From contig NZ_FPKO01000007.1 of NCBI RefSeq assembly GCF_900119385.1, positions 248,001-312,000 on the forward strand: DNA of 64,000 bases, written 5' to 3'. The translations under genes were made by a program, and so were the position numbers. A model generated the notes under the pieces. The model saw nothing but the letters and a program-made list of their open reading frames with translations. It was not told the DNA's origin and did no database searches. The DNA comes from Thermophilibacter mediterraneus (lineage in GTDB: Bacteria > Actinomycetota > Coriobacteriia > Coriobacteriales > Atopobiaceae). Below, piece after piece: positions 4,866 to 39,078 of the stretch. Within the stretch, counting starts at the first letter, position 1. Every line of letters begins with the position of its first letter.

Positions 4866-4956
4866 GCGACCTCCGCGAGAACGTTCGATGCCCCCCAATT
4901 CTAGCGCGGGAGGGGGCCGTCCCGCGCCGGTCGGGCGCGGAGGCCAGCCGAGAAGA

Positions 4957-5180
4957 ACGTGCGGGCTGCGGTCACTTTGGGACCCCGAAACGTCCGGAAC
5001 CCGCACGTGTCTGGGGTTCGTGCGGGTTGCGGTCGGAATCGGGCCCCGGAACGTCCGCAGCCAGCACGTGTTGTGGGAACGTGCGGGTTGCGGTCGGAAT
5101 CGGGCCCCGAAGCGTCCGCGGCCCGCACGTACGTCAACAACGTGCGGGCCGCGGACGGAATGGGGCCAGGCCGTGCGGGC
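4957..5180. repeat. dyad repeat family 1, locus A (61-bp period, 3.7 units)
   Basis: The gap between the exporter pair and xdhD contains no gene. It holds four units at 4957-5008, 5018-5069, 5079-5130 and 5140-5180 (truncated). Each complete unit is a 52-bp imperfect dyad: left arm like ACGTGCGGGTTGCGGTCGG, a roughly 14-bp centre, and a right arm that is its complement. The spacers 5009-5017, 5070-5078 and 5131-5139 are exactly 9 bp and differ in sequence, so the period is 61 bp. The array ends at the stop codon of xdhD. Related arrays lie at 25331 and 38883. Confidence 0.85.
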
Positions 5181-25330: not shown

Positions 25331-25443
25331 GCGCGCGGGCTGCGGACGGTCCGGCCGAGAAGGGCGCCCGCAGCCGGCACGTCTTTTGACTGCGCGCGGG
25401 CCGCGGACGCCTCGAGCCCTCGAGACGCACGCGGTCCGCACCC
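25331..25443. repeat. dyad repeat family 1, locus B (two diverged units)
   Basis: The convergent gap between the SPFH and HAD genes holds two diverged 52-bp dyads at 25331-25382 and 25392-25443. Arms resemble GCGCGCGGGCTGCGGACGG and its complement. The 61-bp period and 9-bp spacer are the same as at 4957 and 38883, although the sequence has drifted. Confidence 0.65.
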
Positions 25444-38882: not shown

Positions 38883-39056
38883 GCGTGCGGGTTGCGGACG
38901 GTTTGGGGCCCGATTCCGACCGCAACCAGCACGCGTTTCGGGAACGTGCGGGTTGCGGACGGTTTGGGGCCCGATTCCGACCGCAACCAGCACGCAGTCT
39001 GGATACGTGCGGGTTACGGACGGTTCCCGCCCCCGGACCGTCCGCAACCAGCACGT
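38883..39056. repeat. dyad repeat family 1, locus C (three perfect-period units)
   Basis: Units 38883-38934, 38944-38995 and 39005-39056 are each 52 bp with 9-bp spacers (38935-38943, 38996-39004). Arms CGTGCGGGTTGCGGACGG and complement; units 1 and 2 are almost identical. The array lies 30 bp from the IS3 element and 22 bp from a family 2 unit. No gene in 38851-39128. Confidence 0.87.
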
Positions 39057-39078
39057 GCTTCTCGCCGCGCGCCTCGAG

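Follow-up and report, generated by a model that had tools for sequence, protein, structure and literature searches.

Among the described repeats, those closest to the arrays reported here are the REP, BIME and REPIN elements associated with RAYT genes, which in the parts of the literature drawn on here are imperfect palindromes, present in many copies, intergenic and mostly located downstream of genes (PMC3733652, PMC3116915). The same parts describe the REPtron, in which one gene has its own repeats on either side, the type of repeat is matched to the protein and the repeats come in both solitary and clustered forms (PMC3733652, PMC3116915). They also describe the CGTC-tagged REPs, REP-like palindromes for which that work found no dedicated transposase and in which CGTC is an unpaired end tag (PMC3733652). 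As far as these sources go, the RAYT is the one known kind of partner gene for REP-like palindromes in the open-licence literature. A search of that literature by title and opening of the abstract revealed no work that connects dispersed palindromic repeats with proteins of the AbiEi or DUF559 type, and no account of DUF559 with inverted repeats was found in it. In AbiE, a type IV toxin-antitoxin system, the AbiEi antitoxin binds inverted repeats at its own promoter.

The window, i.e. the whole 64-kb stretch of Thermophilibacter mediterraneus DNA that was analysed, contains 8 full units of 52 bp and one half unit at three sites, beginning at 4957, 25331 and 38883, and all steps between units are 61 bp. 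Each unit is built from arms of 19 bp around a centre of 14 bp. Units were scored on both strands with a covariance model made from 50 units of the same genome (53 sequence-unique units were listed and three near-copies left out), the six good units of the window being among those that built the model. The first array (A) consists of unit 1 at 4957–5008 (64.9 bits on the minus strand), unit 2 at 5018–5069 (plus strand, 66.4 bits) and unit 3 at 5079–5130 (plus strand, 72.9 bits), with the 9-bp spacers of the spacer comparison at 5009–5017 and 5070–5078, and ends at 5140–5167 (plus strand), in register at +61, in a half unit that stops near the dyad centre and of which the left half scores 29.3 and the right half is negative. 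Array C comprises units at 38883–38934 (minus strand, 75.9 bits), 38944–38995 (minus strand, 74.7 bits) and 39005–39056 (plus strand, 68.2 bits); taking both strands, the six units of arrays A and C score 52.8–75.9 bits. The two units of array B have drifted, the one at 25331–25382 scoring 26.8–29.3 bits and the one at 25392–25443 13.9–17.0 bits (29.3 and 17.0 on the minus strand), and their spacing is still 61 bp. Inspection of the flanks revealed the motif GAGAAG one base outside array A at 4950–4955 (plus strand) and one base outside array C at 39058–39063 (minus strand, CTTCTC on the plus strand), in both cases on one side only.

All three sites are located between predicted genes according to a simple gene caller. 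The sequence-only reading, which had proposed imperfect dyads of 52 bp with arms of 18–19 bp and a centre of about 14 bp, recurring with an exact period of 61 bp at three intergenic places and keeping that period in spite of the drift at 25331, is thus borne out. It had also set the arrays apart from CRISPR, and rightly so, since their spacers are 9 bp and not about 25–40 bp. An 18-mer pattern of the arms gave 14 matches, 13 of them within arrays, against 0.52 expected, and the threshold for a unit was passed 0 times in 290,408 shuffled bases (one shuffle), which excludes a chance origin of the arrays. The window showed no match in Rfam at the gathering score, array A no DNA match to phage records and array C none to plasmid records.

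When the genome of T. mediterraneus was searched with the model, at least 80 units were found at 31 or more places, with 47 steps of 61 bp, one of 60 bp and one of 72 bp; scoring was limited to the 150 best candidates, and the count may therefore overlook drifted arrays in other places. The fetched regions and the window, scanned together with a profile, gave at least 84 units at 32 sites and 52 steps, 50 of which were exactly 61 bp, one 60 bp and one 72 bp. With the simple gene caller, 29 of the 32 sites are clear of predicted genes, one is inside a gene, one overlaps and one touches a gene, and the neighbouring genes are convergent at 12 sites, tandem at 18 and divergent at 2, the arrays being found mostly at the 3' ends of genes. 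A half unit ending near the dyad centre is present at some array ends, and in some arrays a duplication of units is visible. The spacers had been called variable, and their sequences do differ, but the 50 spacers of 9 bp follow a pattern, mostly N-N-Y-Y-S-R-R-R-N. The spacer was also considered as a target-site duplication and this was rejected, as spacers often differ within an array and rarely repeat the flank when compared by eye. At 12 of 64 array ends GAGAAG is situated exactly one base outside the array (0.05 expected), never at both ends of the same array, and may be an end mark or a target. The abutting motif often reads GCCGAGAAGW, on one side only and at many loci, and GAGAAG is also seen in dyad centres and spacers of related species.

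Matches to the model were found in 25 of 31 genomes of the genus and in 28 of 60 relatives overall, T. mediterraneus being included in both counts. A pattern allowing any step of 51–81 bp (31 steps) was run through 84,980 species genomes, a collection to which T. mediterraneus and its near relatives possibly do not belong, and all 23 matches had a step of 61 bp; they form 20 stretches, all in the genomes G019 and G009, and the loci fetched from these two genomes gave 46 of 46 steps of 61 bp (27 arrays). Other species have variant arms around a common GGACG...CGTCC core, with steps of 60–62 bp, 69–73 bp or mixed, and the arms differ between species yet still pair (arms compared by eye). Of the 27 arrays in G019 and G009, ten have the same neighbouring genes as an array of T. 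mediterraneus. The likeness of G019 units to those of T. mediterraneus was 0.709 at shared sites and 0.708 at different sites, and that of G009 units 0.728 and 0.709, one G009 array being a clear ortholog, while the mean likeness between different arrays of one species was 0.744 in G019, 0.759 in G009 and 0.749 in T. mediterraneus. Since units at shared sites are no more alike across species than other units, the sequence of the arrays is replaced within each genome and their places persist or are re-used. When empty sites and target-site duplications, the mark of a MITE moved by a DDE transposase, were sought at two sites, the intergenic DNA of T. mediterraneus and G019 proved too diverged to align.

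The partner gene of these arrays is located outside the window, on contig C6 at 449,384–450,442 (minus strand, stop codon not counted), flanked by the genes of an MFS/Atg22-like transporter and a class-III aminotransferase. Its product P0001, of about 352 aa, is predicted to consist of an AbiEi-like N-terminal part and a Vsr/homing-endonuclease-like C-terminal part. P0001 gave no significant match in Pfam or NCBIfam; within its family the Pfam AbiEi models each match 1 of 44 members (E 0.01–0.02) and one PADLOC AbiEi model matches 28 of the 44. Compared by sequence, P0001 gave only two chance-level matches in the PDB (E 0.67 and 0.7), no match among phage records and one match in the plasmid collection, from Collinsella aerofaciens (34% identity over 78%). 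Relatives of P0001 are present in 38 of 60 genomes, with one to five in each, and a profile of the family reaches 49 of 396 genomes and 25 of 236 genera of the phylum.

An AlphaFold2 model based on the 44-member alignment (pLDDT 92.4, pTM 0.89) could be superimposed with residues 5–208 on the AbiEi antitoxin 6y8q (Z 11.8, 184 residues, rmsd 6.4) and with residues 213–335 on the homing endonuclease domain of I-Bth0305I, 3r3p (Z 9.7, 97/97, rmsd 3.1). Further fold matches of the nuclease part were NGO0050 (3hrl, Z 8.3) and Vsr (1vsr, Z 7.5), where a Z under 8 may reflect merely a common arrangement. With Foldseek alone no PDB structure was matched at E ≤ 0.001, and it is the second aligner on which the fold assignment rests. 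The predicted fold is that of an AbiEi antitoxin, with a winged helix and a partner domain, for the N-terminal part, and that of a Vsr-type homing endonuclease, in its catalytic domain, for the C-terminal part. The 44-member alignment has seven invariant residues, G214, E216, S217, R220, E264, D266 and K270, and a nearly invariant D250; in our reading these residues form a putative PD-(D/E)XK/Vsr-like site.

Arrays are found on both sides of the partner gene in T. mediterraneus, G019 and G009, and in G028 and G008 at least one of its sides has units next to it. GGWC-type long dyads occupy both of its flanks also in G028, G006, G029 and G020. When the family was compared with control genes (82 in total, 48 from the window and 34 from Y1 and rpoC loci), a repeat common to both 400-bp flanks was revealed for 34 of 45 members and 5 of 82 controls (p 3.5e-16), leaving 11 members with no common flank repeat; three of the five positive controls are from loci fetched for Y1 (RAYT-type) genes and two from the window. 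A long dyad was present in a flank of 32 of the 45 members, against 11/48 and 9/34 controls (20/82), and in both flanks of 12 members, against 0/48 and 2/34. Two earlier control sets, one of 6 genes (long dyad in 1) and one of 101 genes from array-bearing loci (long dyad in 32), were discarded as too small or biased. With loci already examined left out, a common flank repeat was also identified for 6 of 14 further members from the order (L242 counted, its frame misread) and for 9 of 10 remote members from Actinomycetota. On these sequence comparisons a link between the gene family and the palindromes is well supported.

Paralogs, and likewise clades, differ in their flanking repeats, which within several clades look alike. 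The gene at locus L194 of G022 and the T. mediterraneus paralog at L208 are sisters with a support of 100, and both have repeats with CGAGCATGCC ends. The match of clade to repeat was tested formally for the GGWC type only, with GGWC dyads on both flanks of 8 of 9 clade-1 genes (SH-aLRT support 98) and 1 of 35 others (p 4.5e-7), and for the clade tested the type of repeat follows the protein clade. A joined query of 12 gene-flanking repeats gave matches in 11 of 12 genomes, the exception being G019, whose repeat was not queried. Among the matches listed, 8 of the 12 repeats have copies away from the gene in their own genome, that of G053 at 14 places and that of paralog L208 at 6, and those of L215, L194, L209 and L199 have none. 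Both L208 (contig C6, 388300–394300) and L209 (contig C6, 271000–277000) are further T. mediterraneus genes of the family, each with a different flanking repeat.

The period of 61 bp recurs where the sequence is another one altogether. In G011 and G017 the clade-2 genes, which share about 60% identity with the T. mediterraneus gene, stand between arrays that have a period of 61 bp and an unrelated sequence, and when the gene-flanking and dispersed arrays of G011, G017 and G022 were taken together (both strands counted), 53 of 67 anchor intervals were exactly 61 bp (23/27 beside genes and 30/40 dispersed) and 5 exactly 122 bp, the remaining ones being 60, 62 and 123 bp as well as 21 and 40 bp, these last two mostly in pairs summing to 61. 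The repeats of paralog L208, G053, G035 and G016 showed no 61-bp tandem array in the nine dispersed stretches examined. The 61-bp step is a property of the system and not of the repeat sequence.

The sequence-only reading had advised a search for a dedicated protein whose presence follows the repeats, and such a candidate is provided by the nuclease-like gene flanked by arrays, but its presence follows them loosely. The 13 genomes with a close relative of the gene (at least 55% identity) have more model matches than the other 18 (one-sided p 0.0037; matches per genome count both strands, with the best 150 scored). There are three clear exceptions, G016, G013 and G018, with 75, 49 and 33 matches and no close relative of the gene in assemblies that are 94, 94 and 91% complete, and few matches are found despite a clade-1 or clade-2 gene in G020 (6), G017 (6), G007 (3) and G011 (1). 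At the partner-gene locus G012 has a unit and no family gene. In one close pair of genomes this locus reads array-gene-array in G006 and in G016 consists of one array, of the left type at one end and of the right type at the other, which fits either recombination between flanking arrays or entry of the gene into an array.

Compared with REP elements and their RAYTs, the arrays show the same features, being imperfect palindromes in many copies, intergenic and downstream of genes, in solitary and clustered forms, with a gene flanked by its own repeats and a repeat type matched to the protein. They differ in that the partner is an AbiEi-Vsr-type protein and not a Y1 HUH transposase, in lacking the unpaired GTAG at the foot of the hairpin and in following one exact 61-bp lattice common to unrelated repeats. 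Nor does anything point to common descent with the CGTC-tagged REPs; GGACG and CGTCC are here located inside the paired arms, CGTC standing opposite GACG in the consensus of the 50 units. We consider it probable that the arrays make up the non-coding component of a REP-like system whose second component, which drives it, is a nuclease-like protein of the AbiEi-Vsr type and not of the HUH class.

That they are instead ordinary REP/BIME elements moved by a RAYT, in line with the RAYT/IS200-like transposase suggested from the window alone, would agree with this common habit and with the finding of Y1 transposase matches in 40 of 60 relatives, many of them of RAYT size and three in T. mediterraneus. 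However, the repeat-rich genome G019, with at least 146 model matches against at least 150 in T. mediterraneus (both strands counted), has no Y1 match, the 5.3-kb regions around the three T. mediterraneus Y1 genes contain no unit at E 0.1, two of these three loci carry other flanking repeats (by eye) and GTAG is absent from the consensus of 50 units and, by eye, as a rule from spacers and flanks. The family search and the survey of the three Y1 loci led to rejection of RAYT as driver of the arrays, and with it the earlier suggestion falls; the explanation is highly improbable. We regard it as equally doubtful that the units are structured RNA hairpins, kept for a function at mRNA 3' ends and amplified by tandem duplication, a proposal consistent with the position of most arrays at gene 3' ends, with the duplicated units and with arms that change between species and go on pairing. 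In a first test the cells of the 19 arm pairs were paired in 84.7% of cases, a value reached or exceeded in 499 of 500 shuffles. Because the strand of the units had been chosen by score, the test was redone without orientation on 82 distinct units; within a unit the arms match at 14.90 of 19 positions as compared with 15.28 (sd 0.11) for arms re-dealt between units, the re-dealt arms being at least as well matched in 2000 of 2000 shuffles, and no covariation between the arms was seen among units of this genome, but rather the opposite. The 52-bp units are systematically imperfect and are kept so, and the constraint on the arrays within the genome is not base pairing. An RNA function is also at odds with the lack of an Rfam family in the window at the gathering score and explains neither the link to the gene nor 61 bp in unrelated sequences; a hairpin RNA, also named in the sequence-only reading, is possible but not needed to explain the arrays.

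Two further explanations concern the gene itself. It may be a homing-endonuclease-like parasite of existing palindromic arrays that owe their spread and homogeneity to another agent, with the gene just inserting into them and thereby coming to be flanked by them, which we hold to be unlikely though worth weighing. The nuclease part is closest to a homing endonuclease domain, with which it shares the predicted catalytic fold, and has acidic residues conserved in the family, the gene of G006 lies inside an array that exists without it in the close relative G016, and G016, G013 and G018 have units and no close relative of the gene. On the other hand, the protein is, unlike I-Bth0305I, fused to an AbiEi-type domain, the gene is situated between genes and not in an intron (one locus examined closely) and is accompanied by many solo copies of its flanking repeat, and in G053 the palindromes on its two sides are both complete, not the halves of a split one; a parasite gives no cause for the dispersed copies of repeats that differ from one family member to another and match it, or for the flank repeats of remote members of the phylum. 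Less probable still is an AbiEi-type regulator or toxin-antitoxin remnant with the dyads as operators and the dispersed arrays as a regulon or decoys under selection on expression, although the predicted AbiEi fold of the N-terminal part, the PADLOC matches, the 10 of 27 array positions common between species and the fixed step all speak for it. Against it, the neighbours of the T. mediterraneus gene include no AbiEii toxin gene, the protein has an extra nuclease-like domain with invariant candidate residues, and the repeats are dispersed and are found downstream as well as upstream of the gene. The dispersed arrays are moreover rarely between divergent genes (2 sites, against 12 convergent and 18 tandem), the wrong place for operators.

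In the two-part system with an AbiEi-Vsr-type protein that we favour, the spreading of the repeats by the protein is inferred, as are binding, cutting and copying and the reason for 61 bp. The winged helix would bind the cognate dyads and the nuclease part would nick or cut at or beside them, after which repair and recombination could place copies of units in intergenic DNA close to the 3' ends of genes, make the units of one genome uniform and add units at one fixed step. This step would be set by how neighbouring protein-bound dyads are held, and for that reason the unrelated repeats of sister proteins could share 61 bp. The sequence-only reading had put forward a binding protein or a mechanism of copying as the source of constraint, and this stands in outline, given 61 bp in two unrelated repeat families and a predicted DNA-binding and nuclease gene flanked by repeats, with binding and copying themselves at the level of the proposal above. 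There is, in our estimate, an even chance that the arrays represent an undescribed class of self-spreading element in Actinomycetota, in which a fused AbiEi-type/Vsr-type protein propagates and homogenises its own lineage-specific palindromes, two clades doing so on a 61-bp lattice dictated by the nuclease, a non-HUH counterpart of RAYT/REP. A protein of another class whose gene has its own repeats on either side, seen in one bacterial order and in the majority of the remote members examined from the phylum, offers a second, testable explanation for the spread of palindromic repeats in bacteria and a candidate function to seek for a nuclease-like family without significant match in Pfam or NCBIfam, and a step of exactly 61 bp in sequences that are unrelated gives unusually clean access to the mechanism.

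Some minor observations were made at other loci. On contig C1 of T. mediterraneus the flanks of the two RAYT-like Y1 genes L114 and L115 contain, by eye, short repeats of another kind, and a RAYT/REP system and the new one may therefore coexist in this genome. At L061–L063 and L068 the steps are 69–73 bp in place of 61 bp, about one helical turn more. The partner-gene locus of G018 (L266) has no such gene and contains palindromes, including another type. The intergenic site after rpoC (L153–L176) carries different palindromes or none depending on the species of the genus, among the genomes listed, and at L175 a long near-perfect inverted repeat is found in this position.
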